Assembly (NCBI RefSeq): GCF_000230735.2
Contig: NC_019962.1
Location: 2,666,001 to 2,730,000 of the forward strand
Length of the DNA stretch: 64,000 nucleotides
Reading direction: 5' to 3'
Origin: Natrinema pellirubrum DSM 15624
GTDB lineage: Archaea; Halobacteriota; Halobacteria; Halobacteriales; Natrialbaceae
The position numbers and the translations under genes are program-made. The notes below the pieces were generated by a model. The model saw only the letters and a program-made list of their open reading frames with translations, was not told the origin of the DNA and made no database searches. Positions 10,927 to 18,304 of the stretch are shown in pieces (the stretch's first letter is position 1; every line of letters begins with the position of its first letter).

Positions 10927-11210
10927 ATCAAAAGCCTCTTCCTTCCCCGCCACTCGCTGACTCGCGGTTTCACCGCTCGTCCGTTGGCGGCGCTACGCGC
11001 CGCGCAACCGCTCGCTCCGGGTCAGTCGTCGGCCCGCTCGCGCCTTCGGCGCTCGCGGTCGTACCGGGTAGCCGCCTGCCCTCCCCCGGATCGGACGGTT
11101 CTCACTGTCGTTCGAGCCGTCCTCTCGGCCAAATCCAGCGAACGTGCGTTCGCCTCGAGCCGGACGACCGAAGAGTAACAATTACTACTACTGTCCGAGT
11201 GACTCCGGTA
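10927..11210. other. Intergenic region with short GC hairpins
   Basis: The region is rich in short self-complementary GC blocks (such as GGCGGCGCTACGCGCCGC and GCGCCTTCGGCGC) typical of haloarchaeal non-coding DNA. Open frames through it are not halophile-like. The promoter of the following lipoprotein gene probably lies within the last 60 bases. No gene is supported. Confidence 0.5.
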
Positions 11211-12002
11211 ATGACAACGCGCCGACTCGGTGTCCTGCTCGCCGTTCTGGCCGTCGGACTCCTCCTGACCGGCTGCGTAGCGCTCGAGGACCCCGAAAAC
11301 GGTACCGACGACCCCGACCCCGAAGCGGTCTTCGAGGGCGCGTACGTCCACAGCGAGGACCTCGAGGACCTCCGAGGCGTGCGACGGGTCGAGATGACCG
11401 ACGGGAACCGGACCGTGACGGAAGTCCTCCGGATCGAGAGACGACCCTACGTCGACGAGCGAAGCGAAGTCGTCGAGGCCTCCGACCCGGTCGTGGTCGG
11501 GAACCAGTACGTGTCGAACGGCACCGACAACTGGCTCTACTATCCCGACGCGGCCGTCGCTCAGCACTTCGAGACGGACGAACAGTTCGATAGCGAGGCG
11601 GTCCGGTCGAATCGTGCCGAGATGGCGGCGAACGTCAGCAGCCTCTATGACCTGGAGTACCGGGGTACCGACCGGGTCGCGGATCGGGAGGCCCACGTCC
11701 TCGCGGTCGCGGCGAAAAACGAGACCGTCGAACGCGACGTGTCCCTGATCGTCGGCGACACCGAGTTCGTCTACCCATTGGAGACGGACGATCCGCGGGA
11801 CGAGATCGACGTCGTAGAGCAGCGTCTCTGGATCGATACGGAGTACGACTACCCGCTGAAAGAGCGACTGGTGTACGAAACCCCGAGCGGCGACCGCTAC
11901 GAGTTGCGTATGGAGTATGACTCGATCGCGTTCAACGTCGGCCTCGAGGACGAGCGGTTCGCGTTCGAGCCGCCGGAAAACACGACCGTCGAGGAGTGGT
12001 GA
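11211..12002 (+). CDS. LolA-like lipoprotein
   Basis: This 263-residue protein has a Sec-type signal with an LLTGC lipobox (Cys22). It would be lipid-anchored on the outer face of the cell membrane. The mature part contains repeated beta-strand patterns (VTEVLRIERRPYVDERSE, TDNWLYYPDAAV, YELRMEYDSIAFNVGLEDER) and ends in FEPPENTTV, resembling the LolA/LppX half-barrel seen in haloarchaeal outer membrane lipoprotein carrier proteins. Archaea lack an outer membrane of that type, so the ligand is unknown. ATG 11211 is favoured over an earlier GTG because it starts directly at the signal peptide. It is convergent with the mscS-type gene. Confidence 0.8.
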   Translation: MTTRRLGVLLAVLAVGLLLTGCVALEDPENGTDDPDPEAVFEGAYVHSEDLEDLRGVRRVEMTDGNRTVTEVLRIERRPYVDERSEVVEASDPVVVGNQYVSNGTDNWLYYPDAAVAQHFETDEQFDSEAVRSNRAEMAANVSSLYDLEYRGTDRVADREAHVLAVAAKNETVERDVSLIVGDTEFVYPLETDDPRDEIDVVEQRLWIDTEYDYPLKERLVYETPSGDRYELRMEYDSIAFNVGLEDERFAFEPPENTTVEEW

Positions 12003-12005
12003 GTC

Positions 12006-12935
12006 CTATTCGGCCGGCTGGACGACGCTTTGTCCGTCGCCGCTCTCGAATCTGAGTCCGCCCTCGAGGGTACGGACCGGGTAGGGGATGTCGATTCCCT
12101 CCTCGTCGAAGCGGCGTTTGACGGCGGTGACGTACTCCCCGCGGGTCCGGACGAAATCGGCCCGCGACGGGTTCGAGATCCAGAACCGCGACTGGAGACC
12201 GACATCGGAGTCGCCCAGTTCCGTCAGTCGGACCGAGGGGGCGGGATCGTCCATGATGTCGGGGTGGCGTTCGGCCTCCTCGACGATGATCTCGGTCGCC
12301 CGGTCGATGTCGTCGCCGTAGCCGATCCCGAAGACGAACTTCAGGCGGAGCTTGTCGGCGTCGACGGGGTTTTTGAGGACGCCGTCGGTCAGCGCCGAGT
12401 TGGGGACGGTAAGCAGTTCGTTGTCGAACGTTCGTACGCGGGTGACCCGGAGGCTGATGTCCTCGACGACGCCCGAGTAATCACCGTTATCCCACTCGAT
12501 CCAGTCGCCGATCCGGAACGGCTTATCGGTGTAGATGAACACGCCCGCCACGAAGTTCGAGATCACGTCCTGCATCGCCAGGCCGATCGCGAGCGCGCCG
12601 GCGGCGGCGATGCCGGCCATCGATACCAGGAAGTTTCCGAAGCCGGCGAAGCCAAAGGCGACCGCGAACGCGAGAAATCCAACCCCGAACCGCGTGAGCA
12701 TCAACAGCGGGTTCTTGGCGTGTTCGTCCAGTTCACGCCGGTCGAGGGCACGACCGACCAGCGGAACGAAAACGAGCCGCCCGACGAACCAGATCGCGGC
12801 GAGCGCGGCCAGAAATCGGATGCCACTCTCGGCGACCCCGGCTTGTGCTGCCGTGAGTCCCGCATCCTCGAGCGTCTCACCGATCACGCCCAGGACGATC
12901 CCGGACAGCGATGCGCCGACCGCACCGCCGGTCAT
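12006..12935 (-). CDS. Small-conductance mechanosensitive channel (MscS family)
   Basis: This 309-residue membrane protein has three or four N-terminal hydrophobic helices. The pore-lining helix is AGIAAAGALAIGLAMQDVIS, rich in Gly/Ala as in MscS TM3, followed by the beta domain (KPFRIGDWIEWDNGDYSGVV, then ISLRVTRVRTFDNELLTVPN) and the alpha/beta cage. It releases osmolytes when membrane tension rises. Its start codon overlaps the TGA of the upstream YhbY-type gene (ATGA at 12932-12935), so the two are probably co-transcribed and translationally coupled. Start and length are typical. Confidence 0.93.
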   Translation of the reverse strand: MTGGAVGASLSGIVLGVIGETLEDAGLTAAQAGVAESGIRFLAALAAIWFVGRLVFVPLVGRALDRRELDEHAKNPLLMLTRFGVGFLAFAVAFGFAGFGNFLVSMAGIAAAGALAIGLAMQDVISNFVAGVFIYTDKPFRIGDWIEWDNGDYSGVVEDISLRVTRVRTFDNELLTVPNSALTDGVLKNPVDADKLRLKFVFGIGYGDDIDRATEIIVEEAERHPDIMDDPAPSVRLTELGDSDVGLQSRFWISNPSRADFVRTRGEYVTAVKRRFDEEGIDIPYPVRTLEGGLRFESGDGQSVVQPAE

Positions 12936-13710: not shown

Positions 13711-13740
13711 ATCGCATACAAAGAGGTGCAAGAGAACGGA

Positions 13741-15564
13741 ATGAATTGGTCCCCATCCTCGCCCGACGACGGCGTTAGCAGGCGCTCATTTCTGGCCGCC
13801 GGCGCGGCCGCCGCCGCGGTGACGGCAAGCGGCTGTATCGACAGCGTCCGAAACGTCGTCGAACAGGCGGGAGATAACCAGATGACACTCTCGATCACGA
13901 CGCTGCCGGCCGACGCCGACCGGCAAAACGTCCAGATCGCCCGCCGGCTCGAGGCGAACCTCGAGGCCGTCGGTATCGACGTCGCACTGGACATGCGTTC
14001 GCCATCGGAGCTACTGAAGACCGTCCTGATCGACCAGGAGTTCGATCTCTACGTCGGCCGCCACCCCGCCGACTACGACCCCGACTTCCTCTACGACGCC
14101 CTCCACTCTACGTTCGCCAACGAACGGGGGTGGCAGAACCCGTTCGGGTTCGCCAATATGTACTTCGATACCCTCCTCGAGGAACAGCGTCGGGTCGACG
14201 GCGAGCAACGAAAGCAACGCCTCGGGTCGGTCCTGCACGGTCTGGCCCAAGAGAAACCGTTCGAACCGATCTGTTTCCCCGACGAACGTCGCATCGCACG
14301 GACCGACGGATTCGAGGGCTGGGACGAGGGAACGCTCGGCAGTCGACACGGCTACCTCGGGCTCGAGGGCGATGGCCAGCTCCATGCCCTCGCAACCGAC
14401 AGTCGCGTGACGCGGAACCTCAATCCCCTCTCGGCGACGGCACGAGAGCGGGAGACGATGATCGACCTGCTCTACGACTCGCTGTTGAGCGAGCGCAACG
14501 GCGAACTCGTCCCCTGGCTCGCCGAGTCGGTCGAGTGGTCCGCGACGCCGTCCGAAACAGCATCGGGCGACGACACGAACGGCGAGAAAGACGACGCGAA
14601 CGCCGACGAACGCGGCGACGAGCGGCGGACCGTCTCGATCACGCTCCGGGAGGACTGTCGGTTCCACGACGGCGAGCCACTGACTGCATCCGACGTGGCC
14701 TTTACTTACCGGTTCCTCGAGGACACGTCGCTCGGGCGAGCGCCCGAATCGCCGGCATCGAGGTATCGAGGGCAGGTCGAGATGGTCGAATCGGTCGAGA
14801 CCGAAGACGACCGCCGACTGACGATCTCCCTGCGGGGCGAAACGCCGGCCGGGCAACGGGCACTGACCGTGCCGATCCTCCCCAAACACGTCTGGCAGGA
14901 ACTGATCGATCAATGGGCGGCAAGCGGCGAGTTCTCCGCGCCACAGGGCCGGTGGGTGGCCGTCACCGGGGAACACATCCCGCCGGTCGGCAGCGGTCCC
15001 TACCGGTACGAGAGCCACACCGAGGACGAACAGTTGGTCCTCGAGCGATACGACGATCACTTCACGCTGCGAGAAGACGTCGACCTCGGCGAGCCGGTCG
15101 CAGAGGGGCTCCGGTTCACTATCGAGCCCGGGAGCGCAGCGGCGGTCAGACGGGTCACCGACGGCAGCGGTGACCTGACGGCCTCGATTCTCGATGCGTA
15201 CGCCCTCGGTGGGATACCCGATTCGTCGGATATCACGGAACTGACCGCCCCCCACCGGAGCTTCTATCAGATCGGATTCAACGTCCGTAACGCCCCGCTC
15301 AGCAATCCCCACTTCCGACGGGCGATCACGCAACTGATCGACAAGGAAACGATCGTCGACGAGGTCTTTTACGACTACGCGACGCCGACCGCGACGCCGG
15401 TGGCCGACGACTGGGTTCCGTCGAGCCTCGAGTGGAGTGGAGAGGATCCAGTGACGCCGTTCGTCGGCTCGAACGGTCGTCTCAACGTCGAAGCCGCGAA
15501 GTCCGCCTTCGAAACGGCCGGCTTCCGATACGATGATAACGGACGGTTGCTTGGAGGCTACTAA
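13741..15564 (+). CDS. Circularly permuted family-5 solute-binding lipoprotein (copy A)
   Basis: This 607-residue Tat lipoprotein has VSRRSFLAAG, a TASGC lipobox (Cys32) and family-5 (DppA/OppA-type) solute-binding sequence in an unusual order. Residues about 48-205 (NQMTLSITTLPAD, VGIDVALDMRSP, DPDFLYDALHSTF, then a C-terminal-type IARTDGFEGW) match the segment that normally ends these proteins. Residues about 212-607 (TRNLNPLSA, FHDGEPLTASDVAFTYRFLE, VGSGPYRYES, QIGFNVRNAPLSN, FETAGFRYDDNGRLL) match the normal N-terminal and middle parts. The natural linker after NGRLL is thus the new C-terminus. GTG 13726 is an alternative start. It is followed after 5 nt by the PAP2-type gene. No permease or ATPase gene is near. 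Confidence 0.85.
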   Translation: MNWSPSSPDDGVSRRSFLAAGAAAAAVTASGCIDSVRNVVEQAGDNQMTLSITTLPADADRQNVQIARRLEANLEAVGIDVALDMRSPSELLKTVLIDQEFDLYVGRHPADYDPDFLYDALHSTFANERGWQNPFGFANMYFDTLLEEQRRVDGEQRKQRLGSVLHGLAQEKPFEPICFPDERRIARTDGFEGWDEGTLGSRHGYLGLEGDGQLHALATDSRVTRNLNPLSATARERETMIDLLYDSLLSERNGELVPWLAESVEWSATPSETASGDDTNGEKDDANADERGDERRTVSITLREDCRFHDGEPLTASDVAFTYRFLEDTSLGRAPESPASRYRGQVEMVESVETEDDRRLTISLRGETPAGQRALTVPILPKHVWQELIDQWAASGEFSAPQGRWVAVTGEHIPPVGSGPYRYESHTEDEQLVLERYDDHFTLREDVDLGEPVAEGLRFTIEPGSAAAVRRVTDGSGDLTASILDAYALGGIPDSSDITELTAPHRSFYQIGFNVRNAPLSNPHFRRAITQLIDKETIVDEVFYDYATPTATPVADDWVPSSLEWSGEDPVTPFVGSNGRLNVEAAKSAFETAGFRYDDNGRLLGGY

Positions 15565-15569
15565 CAGCG

Positions 15570-16433
15570 ATGCTCGCCGAGGTGCTGACACAGGTCGCCC
15601 TCGTTATCGGGATCTTGCTCCCGGTTTCGGTCCTCGTCTTTATCGGCCGTGAGCGACTCGTCCGGACTCGAGCCGAGTGGCGTGACCGCTTGCGGACGAA
15701 CGCGCCGGTTATCGCCGTCTTGCTCGTCGTTCTCCTGATAAACCGCGTCGCCAGACAGACGGCACCGAAACTCTCTCGGGAGATCGGGATCCATCTGACC
15801 GCGACGTTTTACAACGTCGAGGGGGAGTTTATCCTCCTGTTCAAGTCAGTCGAGACGCCGGAGCTGACGGCATACTTCGCGTCCGTCTACGTCTTCGGCT
15901 ACACGTTCCTGTTGATCTTTCCGGTCATCGCGTACTTCATGCTCTCTGATACGCGGATCTTCCGTCGGCTGTTGACCGCCTACGCCCTCAACTACGCGAT
16001 CGGGCTCCTCCTGTATATCCTCATCATCGCATATGGGCCACGGAACGTGATGCCGGCCGAACTCACTGAGCGGATGCTGTACGACACGAACCCCCAGTAC
16101 CAGTATCTCACCCGCGAGGTAAACGCCAACACCAACGTCTTCCCGTCGCTGCATACCTCGCTGTCGGCGACCGTCGCGGCGTTTGCGTCGATGACGCGCT
16201 CGGCGTACCCCAAGTGGTTCCCCATCGCGGTCGTGTTGGGCGCAAGCGTCGCGATCTCGACGATGTATCTGGGGATCCACTGGGGGATCGACGTCGCTGC
16301 AGGGCTGGTCCTCGCAGCGACCTGTGTCGTCCTCTCGGACAAACTGGTCGACCGCTGGTCGCTGTCCGACCTGTTCGGGGACCGCCTCGAGCGGCTCAGC
16401 GACCGACTACCCCGATTCCACCGGGAGGAGTGA
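15570..16433 (+). CDS. PAP2-family membrane phosphatase/transferase
   Basis: This 287-residue polytopic membrane protein has six or so helices. Two PAP2 active-site motifs are clear: FPSLHTS (His195) and TMYLGIHWGIDVAAG (His237, Asp241). The first, KxxxxxxRP motif is not obvious, as in the inositol-phosphoceramide-synthase-like branch. Such enzymes hydrolyse or exchange lipid phosphate esters at the membrane surface. It starts 5 nt after the first permuted binding protein gene and is almost certainly co-transcribed with it; the second copy follows after 98 nt with its own promoter. The link to the binding proteins is inferred from position only. Confidence 0.85.
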   Translation: MLAEVLTQVALVIGILLPVSVLVFIGRERLVRTRAEWRDRLRTNAPVIAVLLVVLLINRVARQTAPKLSREIGIHLTATFYNVEGEFILLFKSVETPELTAYFASVYVFGYTFLLIFPVIAYFMLSDTRIFRRLLTAYALNYAIGLLLYILIIAYGPRNVMPAELTERMLYDTNPQYQYLTREVNANTNVFPSLHTSLSATVAAFASMTRSAYPKWFPIAVVLGASVAISTMYLGIHWGIDVAAGLVLAATCVVLSDKLVDRWSLSDLFGDRLERLSDRLPRFHREE

Positions 16434-16485
16434 CTCCCGGGCGACCGGCCGATGCCGTCCGGCGGTCGTCGGCCGTTGACTGAGC

Positions 16486-16500
16486 GCAATACTGTTATAT
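16486..16500 (+). promoter_or_regulatory. Promoter of second permuted solute-binding protein gene
   Basis: GCAATACTGTTATAT lies about 32-46 bp before ATG 16532 and differs by one base from 13696-13710, so the two paralogues have nearly identical core promoters. Confidence 0.7.
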
Positions 16501-16531
16501 CGTTGCTCTTCAACTATGATAAACGAACGAA

Positions 16532-18304
16532 ATGAACGGAGGATCAGCCGCGCCGAACCGAACGGACCCCGGTGATGGCGGCCTGAGCGTCAGTCGGCGG
16601 GGCGCCTTGGCGGCGGCGGCCGGCCTGACGGTTTCGACCAGCGGATGCATTCGGCAAGTTCGGGACATCCTCATGCCGGACAACATCCAGCAACTCTCGC
16701 TGACGATCACGACCCTCCCCACGGACAGCGACAGAGAGAGCATTCGGCTCTCCCGGGAGTTGGCCGACGTCTTCGAGGCGGTCGGCATCGACGTCTCGTT
16801 CGATATCCGATCCCCGGTCGATTTCCGTCGGACGGTGCTGTACGATCACGAGTTCGACATCTGTCTCCTCGAGCATCCGGGCGGAATCGATCCGGATTTC
16901 CTCTACGAGGCGTTGCATTCGGTCTATACCGACGAATCGGGCTGGCAGAACCCCTTCGGGTACACCAACCTGACCGTCGATGACTCCCTCGAGACCCAGC
17001 GCCAACTCGAGGGTGAAAAGCGCCGCGAGGCCGTCACGGACGTCCTCGAGGAGGTGGCGATCGAACAGCCGTTCGTCCCGATCTGTATTCCGGACCAACA
17101 CCGTGCGGTCAGGACCGATCGGTTCGACTGGGACGAACGCGCGCTTGCGACCCCGCAGGGCTATCTCGGCCTCGATCCGGCACCGGACGTCTCGACGCTG
17201 CGGGTCACGCATACCGATTCCCGGCCGACGACGAACCTCAATCCGCTTGCGGTCGACTATCGGGGCCACGGTCCGTTCGTCGATCTCCTGTACGACTCGC
17301 TGGCGGCCGAAACCGCCGACGGCGAGATCAAACCCTGGTTTGCCCGCTCGTGGGAGTGGGACGCCAGGACGATCGACGTGCGACTCCGGACCGACTGTCC
17401 GTTCCACGACGGCGAGCCCATGACGGCCGAAGACGTCGCCTTTACCTATCGGTTCCTCGCGGACATGCACCCCGACGACGCCGAGACTTCTGCTCCCGCG
17501 CCCCGATACCGCGGGCTGGTCGAAGCCGTCGACTCGGTCGACGTCGTCCACCGCGATCGACTCGAGTTGCGGATCGACGCCGGCCGGCCGGTCGGTGAAC
17601 GGGCGCTACTGGTCCCGATCCTCCCCGCACATATCTGGCGCGAGCGGGCGAGCGACGCGAACGGACCGGGAGGCGCGACCATCGCGCAGGGAACCACGGA
17701 AGCGGTCGTGACGGACAATATCGAACCGATCGGGAGCGGACCGTTCCAGTTCGTGAGTCGGACCGAAGGTGACGGCCTCACGCTCGAGCGGTTCGACGGC
17801 CACTTCACGCTGCGATCGGGTGTCGATCTCCCGGCACCGAGCGTCGACGAACTGACCGTCAGTATCGATCCACCAGGGTCGGCCGTCCAGCGGGTCATCG
17901 ACGACACCGCTGACGTGACGGCGTCACCTCTCGGGACGAACGTCGTCGGCAGCGTCGATCAGTCCGGCAGTACTCGCGTCCTCGAGTCACCGTCGTGGTC
18001 GTTTTACTGTCTCGGGTTCAACGCGCGGGACGCGCCGTTCAGCAATCCCCGATTCCGCCGTGTCATCGCACAGTTGATCGACAAGGAGTGGTTGGTCGAC
18101 GAGGTGTTCCAGGGCTACGCGCGTCCCATCGCGACGCCCGTGACCGAGGAGTGGGTTCCCGAGAGCCTCGAGTGGAACGGCACCGATCCCGAAACGCCGT
18201 TCCTCGGAACGGACGGCGAGGTCGACGAGGACGCGGTCGAGGCGGCCTTCGAGTCGGCCGGCTTCCGCTACGACGAGCAGGGCCGGCTCCGGGTCAGACA
18301 GTAG
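16532..18304 (+). CDS. Circularly permuted family-5 solute-binding lipoprotein (copy B)
   Basis: This 590-residue paralogue of the product at 13741 has the same permuted layout: Tat motif SRRGALAAAA, lipobox STSGC (Cys39), C-terminal-type segment first (QQLSLTITTLPTD, VGIDVSFDIRSP, DPDFLYEALHSVY), then the N-terminal-type segment (TTNLNPLAVDY, FHDGEPMTAEDVAFTYRFLA, IGSGPFQFVS, CLGFNARDAPFSN), ending FESAGFRYDEQGRLRVRQ. The two proteins are similar throughout, including motifs such as RFRRVIAQLIDKEWLVDEVF. A shorter linker replaces the acidic insert seen in copy A (about residues 268-295). It would bind peptides or another solute outside the cell. No transporter genes are adjacent. Confidence 0.85.
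   Translation: MNGGSAAPNRTDPGDGGLSVSRRGALAAAAGLTVSTSGCIRQVRDILMPDNIQQLSLTITTLPTDSDRESIRLSRELADVFEAVGIDVSFDIRSPVDFRRTVLYDHEFDICLLEHPGGIDPDFLYEALHSVYTDESGWQNPFGYTNLTVDDSLETQRQLEGEKRREAVTDVLEEVAIEQPFVPICIPDQHRAVRTDRFDWDERALATPQGYLGLDPAPDVSTLRVTHTDSRPTTNLNPLAVDYRGHGPFVDLLYDSLAAETADGEIKPWFARSWEWDARTIDVRLRTDCPFHDGEPMTAEDVAFTYRFLADMHPDDAETSAPAPRYRGLVEAVDSVDVVHRDRLELRIDAGRPVGERALLVPILPAHIWRERASDANGPGGATIAQGTTEAVVTDNIEPIGSGPFQFVSRTEGDGLTLERFDGHFTLRSGVDLPAPSVDELTVSIDPPGSAVQRVIDDTADVTASPLGTNVVGSVDQSGSTRVLESPSWSFYCLGFNARDAPFSNPRFRRVIAQLIDKEWLVDEVFQGYARPIATPVTEEWVPESLEWNGTDPETPFLGTDGEVDEDAVEAAFESAGFRYDEQGRLRVRQ

Follow-up and report, generated by a model that had tools for sequence, protein, structure and literature searches.

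How can two neighbouring lipoprotein genes carry the parts of a DppA/OppA-type binding protein in swapped order, and is this arrangement confined to a single locus? The question is raised by two open reading frames in a stretch of 64,000 nucleotides from Natrinema pellirubrum DSM 15624 (contig NC_019962.1, positions 2,666,001 to 2,730,000), which is referred to below as the window. A first-pass annotation had read their products, here called A and B, as circularly permuted solute-binding proteins (SBPs), and both frames were found at the coordinates that it gave. Profile comparison identifies both as genuine, naturally occurring circular permutants within family 5 (cluster C, DppA/OppA-like) of the solute-binding lipoproteins. 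In both, the canonical C-terminal part stands directly behind the lipobox of a twin-arginine translocation (Tat) signal and the N-terminal part follows, as seen in comparisons with PF00496, with PDB sequences and between profiles. The parts are arranged as follows.

13741..15564, plus strand: SBP A, permuted family-5 solute-binding lipoprotein, 607 aa (PF00496 profile and model alignments)
13741..13836, plus strand: Tat signal (SRRSFLAAG) and lipobox of A up to Cys32, retained at the front (sequence; weak Pfam TAT_signal and NCBIfam TAT matches)
13882..14379, plus strand: displaced canonical C-terminal part of A, LSITTLP ... DPDFLY ... IARTD (Pfam, canonical model, profile-profile comparison, PDB profile)
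14353..14388, plus strand: joint of A between the old C-terminus and the old N-terminus, GYLGLEGDGQLH (canonical-model alignment, inspection of the joint)
14380..15561, plus strand: canonical N-terminal and middle part of A, NLNPL ... FHDGEP ... GSGP ... GFRYD-GRL, now last (PF00496 1-284)
16532..18304, plus strand: SBP B, second permuted copy, 590 aa (PF00496 profile; 51% identity to A)
16694..17188, plus strand: displaced canonical C-terminal segment of B (rejoined Pfam match, inspection of the joint)
17189..18301, plus strand: canonical N-terminal and middle part of B, now last (PF00496 1-279)

An in-frame GTG at 13726 would, if used as the start, lengthen SBP A by 5 residues.

The PF00496 profile has a length of 368 and a curated (gathering) cut-off of 32.4 bits. 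As read, residues 255-601 of A match profile positions 1-284 (169.9 bits) and residues 265-579 of B match positions 1-279 (144.8 bits), both above this cut-off. The N-terminal fragment of A alone matches positions 289-360 with an E-value of 2.4e-4. In A, profile positions 289-360 precede positions 1-284, which departs from the canonical order of the mature domain, and a single stretch is obtained only once the two parts are rejoined. The alignment of rejoined A proposed in the first-pass annotation gives one match, to positions 1-360, with 182.8 bits, and rejoined B gives one match to positions 1-358 with 156.5 bits. The known structure of AppA (1xoc) aligns with A in the same swapped order: query residues 298-543 correspond to chain residues 82-301, and query residues 56-194 to chain residues 368-502, the latter alignment being weak when taken alone.

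To characterize the displaced segment, a profile was built from 16 relatives over their first ~150 mature residues and searched against the PDB at E<=1. All 25 of the 25 distinct sequences found are binding proteins of this type, nearly all matched in their last third, with the best matches to 5u4o (369-500, E 1.3e-6) and 1xoc (363-495). Compared by hhalign with unpermuted haloarchaeal SBPs, the segment aligned to template positions 434-552 with a probability of 58; 20 column-shuffled controls reached at most 0.5. Because the segment matches binding proteins at this place, the outcome that the first-pass annotation had named as fatal to its own proposal, namely a family match of one half only or an unrelated N-terminal domain, did not occur. 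In Pfam and NCBIfam, A and B match family-5 profiles only.

The annotation had further suggested surveying haloarchaea for the same order, and this revealed a widespread permuted clade that extends well past the A/B pair. The genomes of this and the other surveys were drawn as a sample. At E<=1e-50, 238 of the 392 genomes sampled from the order, and 67 of its 95 sampled genera, contain A-type matches; among the matches listed, most of the best ones are colinear over almost the full length. The same order is found on alphaproteobacterial plasmids of Microvirga (5-603), Nitratireductor (43-595), Neorhizobium and Ketogulonicigenium, and a bacterial query adds Roseomonas and Maritalea to the permuted set. 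The protein from Ketogulonicigenium also shows the swapped order when aligned to AppA, the two pieces scoring 88 and 29 bits. Within the archaeal phylum, joint-spanning matches are restricted to haloarchaea with one exception, genome G550, in which residues 27-168 correspond to positions 448-605 and residues 202-499 then correspond to 75-412. The G550 gene (L226:4230-5972, minus strand) lies beside dppBCDF genes, and its product contains a Thr/Pro-rich stretch as well as a C-terminal hydrophobic stretch and basic tail resembling an archaeal C-terminal anchor. In 26 sampled haloarchaeal genomes, 36 of the 127 PF00496 matches that begin at the profile start stop at positions 276-300, and 7 stop at 255-267; among 47 matches in 25 genomes of another archaeal family, none stops at 276-300.

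Cut sites were located on a canonical model of 629 positions, which was derived from unpermuted haloarchaeal SBPs (29 close and 3 distant members). On this model the A/B class covers ~433-504 and beyond, followed by ~63-450. Other orders are also present: class P (11 genes) covers 542-625 and then 68-544, class Q (8 genes) covers about 414-620 and then 67-420, and class R, which occurs in two genera, covers 197-624 and then 67-184. Besides the cut of the A/B class at ~450, the cuts therefore lie at model positions ~190, ~420 and ~543, and classes P and Q both recur across genera and families. After rejoining, the proteins of classes P, Q and R each give one model match of ~555 positions, with median scores of 650, 623 and 736 bits, compared with 582, 425 and 579 bits for the best piece as read; as a control, artificial cutting of canonical proteins lowers the score from 873 to 574. 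The case is strongest for class P, whose rejoined protein L085 shares 66% identity with the unpermuted protein L092 of another genome over 584 residues; rejoined Q and R proteins reach 46% and 48% identity to unpermuted proteins over 570-585 residues. Identities so far beyond chance leave little doubt that P, Q and R are permutations of one protein. On these alignments, three further permutations with other cut sites arose within an ordinary haloarchaeal subfamily. The window genome itself encodes seven family-5 proteins, and besides A and B one of them (P0003, class T) is cut in the same way and another (P0004, class P) is cut elsewhere.

The number of events was assessed with a quick maximum-likelihood tree, built from 102 proteins arranged in canonical order and showing long branches among the distant canonical rows. 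Classes A, T and U group with the bacterial proteins in a single clade with a support of 99 in the Shimodaira-Hasegawa-like approximate likelihood ratio test (SH-aLRT), so that one old permutation would account for all of them. By this tree, A and B belong to an old permuted clade common to haloarchaea and alphaproteobacteria. Class Q forms a clade of its own (SH-aLRT 100), P and R are placed among unpermuted proteins, and unpermuted rows surround Q and R. A single clade of P, Q and R is rejected by the approximately unbiased (AU) test (p 0.0003). The different cut sites and the separate positions in the tree imply at least four permutations in haloarchaea, at four cut places.

In the A/B clade, the cut at ~450 of 629 falls between the motifs '..ARxVMEEAGYGPDNR' and 'YELTLTVYE' of the canonical sequence, and alignment to MppA (3o9p) places it near residues 350-360. 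Since the C-lobe (domain III), which we take to span about 271-486 in OppA numbering, includes this region, the new ends lie inside the C-lobe. The natural hinge linker, where the first-pass annotation had put them, has to be given up; they fall instead between the helix ending in ..AGFRYD-GRL and the strand LSITTLP. The new ends would thus have been opened after the helix '..AxxxLExAGY-D' and before the beta-strand that follows it, while the old C- and N-termini are linked through a few residues (GYLGLEGDGQLH in A). Despite this rearrangement, A and B probably keep a closed two-lobe fold.

The position of the membrane tether is also affected. Canonical SBPs are tethered through the N-lobe, into which their lipid anchor runs. 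In the permuted proteins the front is always occupied by the Tat signal and lipobox, and consequently the tether is predicted to shift to the other lobe. In A/B, T, U, P and Q the anchor is predicted to lead into the C-lobe, and in class R into the subdomain with the N-lobe insertion.

How the swapped order arose can be approached through gene arrays and double genes. The first-pass annotation had proposed a permutation followed by a duplication, and this agrees well with the observations: both halves belong to family 5 but stand in swapped order, the two proteins share 51% identity, and relatives with arrays of the type SBP-PAP2-SBP-PAP2 occur in L173 (a Natronorubrum bangense plasmid), L142 and L143. 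The window carries the array SBP-PAP2-SBP, in which the second PAP2 gene seems to have been lost. The permutation itself would have started with an in-frame tandem duplication of the mature domain, after which the N-terminal part of the first copy and the C-terminal part of the second copy would have been trimmed with the signal staying in place. The intermediate that permutation by duplication needs is represented in genome G003 by the gene L233:4111-7704 (minus strand), an in-frame fused tandem of two family-5 SBPs with 1197 aa, copies that are 69% identical and a signal peptide on the first copy only; a single-copy paralogue, 74% identical, is located elsewhere in the same genome. The long open frames L236 and L238, also considered as double proteins, contain one SBP each, which leaves L233 as the sole true double. 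Duplication and trimming is considered the likely route.

Several observations weigh against this account and lend something to its rivals. AlphaFold2 modelling of A/B from 6 sequences gave a mean predicted local distance difference test (pLDDT) score of 34; viral contigs yielded no further relatives for the alignment, and a scan of genome contigs yielded two loci. This poor prediction, together with the score of 20.8 bits for the N-terminal segment of A alone (below the Pfam gathering value), would suit an unrelated domain of ~200 residues placed before a truncated SBP. Such a domain is extremely improbable and was rejected on the PDB profile matches of the displaced segment, which are confined to this type of binding protein and lie nearly all in the last third; the rejoined Pfam match to 1-360 and the alignment of AppA to both parts in swapped order speak against it as well. 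In A/B and T, moreover, the displaced segment shows weak similarity to its unpermuted counterparts (hhalign 58 and 25) and has diverged far more than the remainder, and its assignment, weak against unpermuted proteins, rests on the clade with U. This weak similarity leaves room for a chimera, in which an SBP without a C-terminal part of its own acquired, by recombination upstream of it, a front segment from another SBP gene; the two parts could come from two genes, and a similar origin was considered for the treponemal protein TpMglB-2 (PMC4990184). However, both parts of class P match one unpermuted homologue at the 66% identity given above, with 46% and 48% for Q and R, and at the joints only a few residues separate the canonical C-terminus from the canonical start that follows it, so that a chimera is unlikely. 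The tandem fusion, for its part, belongs to another SBP subfamily and was seen in a single genome. Finally, the tree places L092, an unpermuted protein, within class P. Since one P clade is tolerated (AU p 0.08), either a reversal or two P events may have taken place; the unpermuted SBP L092/L232 belongs to genome G052 and could mark either a second origin of P or a return to the canonical arrangement. This nesting, unless the tree is imprecise there, shows that reversal or repeated change happens, as would be expected if all permutations descended from one ancestral permutant whose cut later shifted or reverted. That descent is nevertheless very unlikely given the rejected P+Q+R clade and the unpermuted rows around Q and R.

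The remaining question concerns what the permuted proteins do. The genes of classes P, Q, R, T and U lie directly before DppB/DppC-type permease genes, with ATPase genes present in nearly all loci, and the annotated bacterial class U genes likewise precede permease and ATPase genes. Because of this position, these proteins are very likely functional binding proteins of peptide-type importers. The class U operons L171 and L172 adjoin genes for hydantoinase/oxoprolinase, M28 or M20 peptidase and creatininase, a hint of amide or cyclic-peptide ligands. The A class differs in its partner, which in the window is the gene between A and B:

15570..16433, plus strand: PAP2_3/PAP2 family membrane enzyme, 287 aa, with GPRN, PSLH and IHWxxD (PF14378, E 2e-15)

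The retained motifs are presumably residues like those of active PAP2/Aur1-type enzymes. A PAP2-family gene lies immediately downstream of 47 of 51 A-class genes, and three of the four exceptions are B copies of Natrinema, where an A-PAP2 pair already precedes the gene. Examination of 19 A-class loci revealed no DppB/DppC-type gene. All five DppB-type permeases of the window genome are paired with a neighbouring SBP that is neither A nor B, none being left over; of the seven family-5 proteins, only A and B lack a permease. A lipoprotein with weak LolA/RseB-like similarity (11199-12002, plus strand) is encoded in the window upstream of the SBP-PAP2-SBP group and is adjoined by an MscS-type channel gene (12006-12935, minus strand).

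A and B may bind an extracellular ligand as ordinary Venus-flytrap proteins and, with this ligand captured or sensed, may serve the co-encoded PAP2-type membrane enzyme, putatively a phosphatase or phosphotransferase, instead of a dedicated importer. The main functional rival holds that A and B are orphan binding proteins feeding one of the five DppBCDF importers and that PAP2 is an unlinked neighbour. The five permeases make this conceivable, and in Pseudomonas aeruginosa several DppA proteins are described as sharing one permease (PMC4206461). It is a possible but distinctly less probable explanation, since 47 of 51 genes from many families retain PAP2 as partner within a few bases and the 19 loci examined yielded no such permease gene. 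The PAP2 partnership is itself drawn from gene neighbourhood only, and L138 has no recognisable PAP2, two further points against the account given here. In E. coli DppA, R383 and D436 hold the peptide ends (PMC12136057); both positions fall in the displaced segment, and at that of D436 alignment by eye gives Ala in A and Gly in B. We infer a partnership with the PAP2-type enzyme. Taken jointly, the preferred reading, in which A and B are permutants of an old clade, permutation recurred, duplication was the route and PAP2 rather than an importer is the partner, is considered highly probable; the order and homology of the A/B parts, the recurrence and the operon context enter it as direct observations.

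Natural circular permutation is usually regarded as a matter of rare single cases, while here a single family underwent permutation several times and at several sites. With close relatives that are unpermuted yet share the operon setting, the origin of a permutation becomes testable, and a fused tandem intermediate is available. The system also allows tests of where in its sequence a two-lobe binding protein tolerates a cut and of whether the side of the membrane tether matters for transport, and the old permease-less branch paired with a PAP2 enzyme may represent a non-transport use of a binding protein. The permuted proteins that were checked are annotated 'ABC transporter substrate-binding protein' (ABC, ATP-binding cassette), and PF00496 ends early on the ~450 class; with a generic name and an early profile end, the permutation is missed by annotation.

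The proteins resemble known family-5/cluster C SBPs (PF00496; DppA, OppA, AppA, NikA) in sequence over all parts and in Tat/lipoprotein export, and most permuted classes share the same SBP-B-C-D-F gene order. They differ in the swapped mature domain and the predicted anchor on the other lobe, and A/B in having no adjacent permease. A full-text literature search, with subscription journals outside its scope, found no description of permutation in family-5 SBPs. In the searched literature natural SBP permutation is on record once, for TpMglB-2; the family-5 case is unusual for its recurrence. A full account, in which haloarchaeal family-5 lipoproteins were permuted in at least four events at as many cut sites, have 66% identical permuted and unpermuted homologues in equivalent operons and a tandem intermediate, and the A/B branch left ABC transport for PAP2, is put forward with about even confidence.

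Permutation by duplication is described as proceeding through a fused tandem intermediate in which the old termini are joined (PMC3320104). A fused tandem is likewise present in G003 (L233); compared with that scheme, the 5' end retained here, with signal peptide and lipobox, lies outside the permuted unit. The closest parallel is TpMglB-2 (Tp0684) of Treponema pallidum, a permuted cluster B glucose-binding protein for which a 'cluster Bc' was proposed and which has relatives in other treponemes and Gram-positive bacteria (PMC4990184). It is likewise a natural, lipid-anchored, circularly permuted SBP. However, it belongs to the sugar-binding cluster B, has a single cut in the N-lobe and a displaced part poor in sequence similarity (PMC4990184). 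A and B, which match family-5 profiles only, are not members of a cluster Bc of this kind, and the haloarchaeal set as a whole belongs to cluster C, with at least four cut sites and with permuted and unpermuted homologues that are 66% identical.

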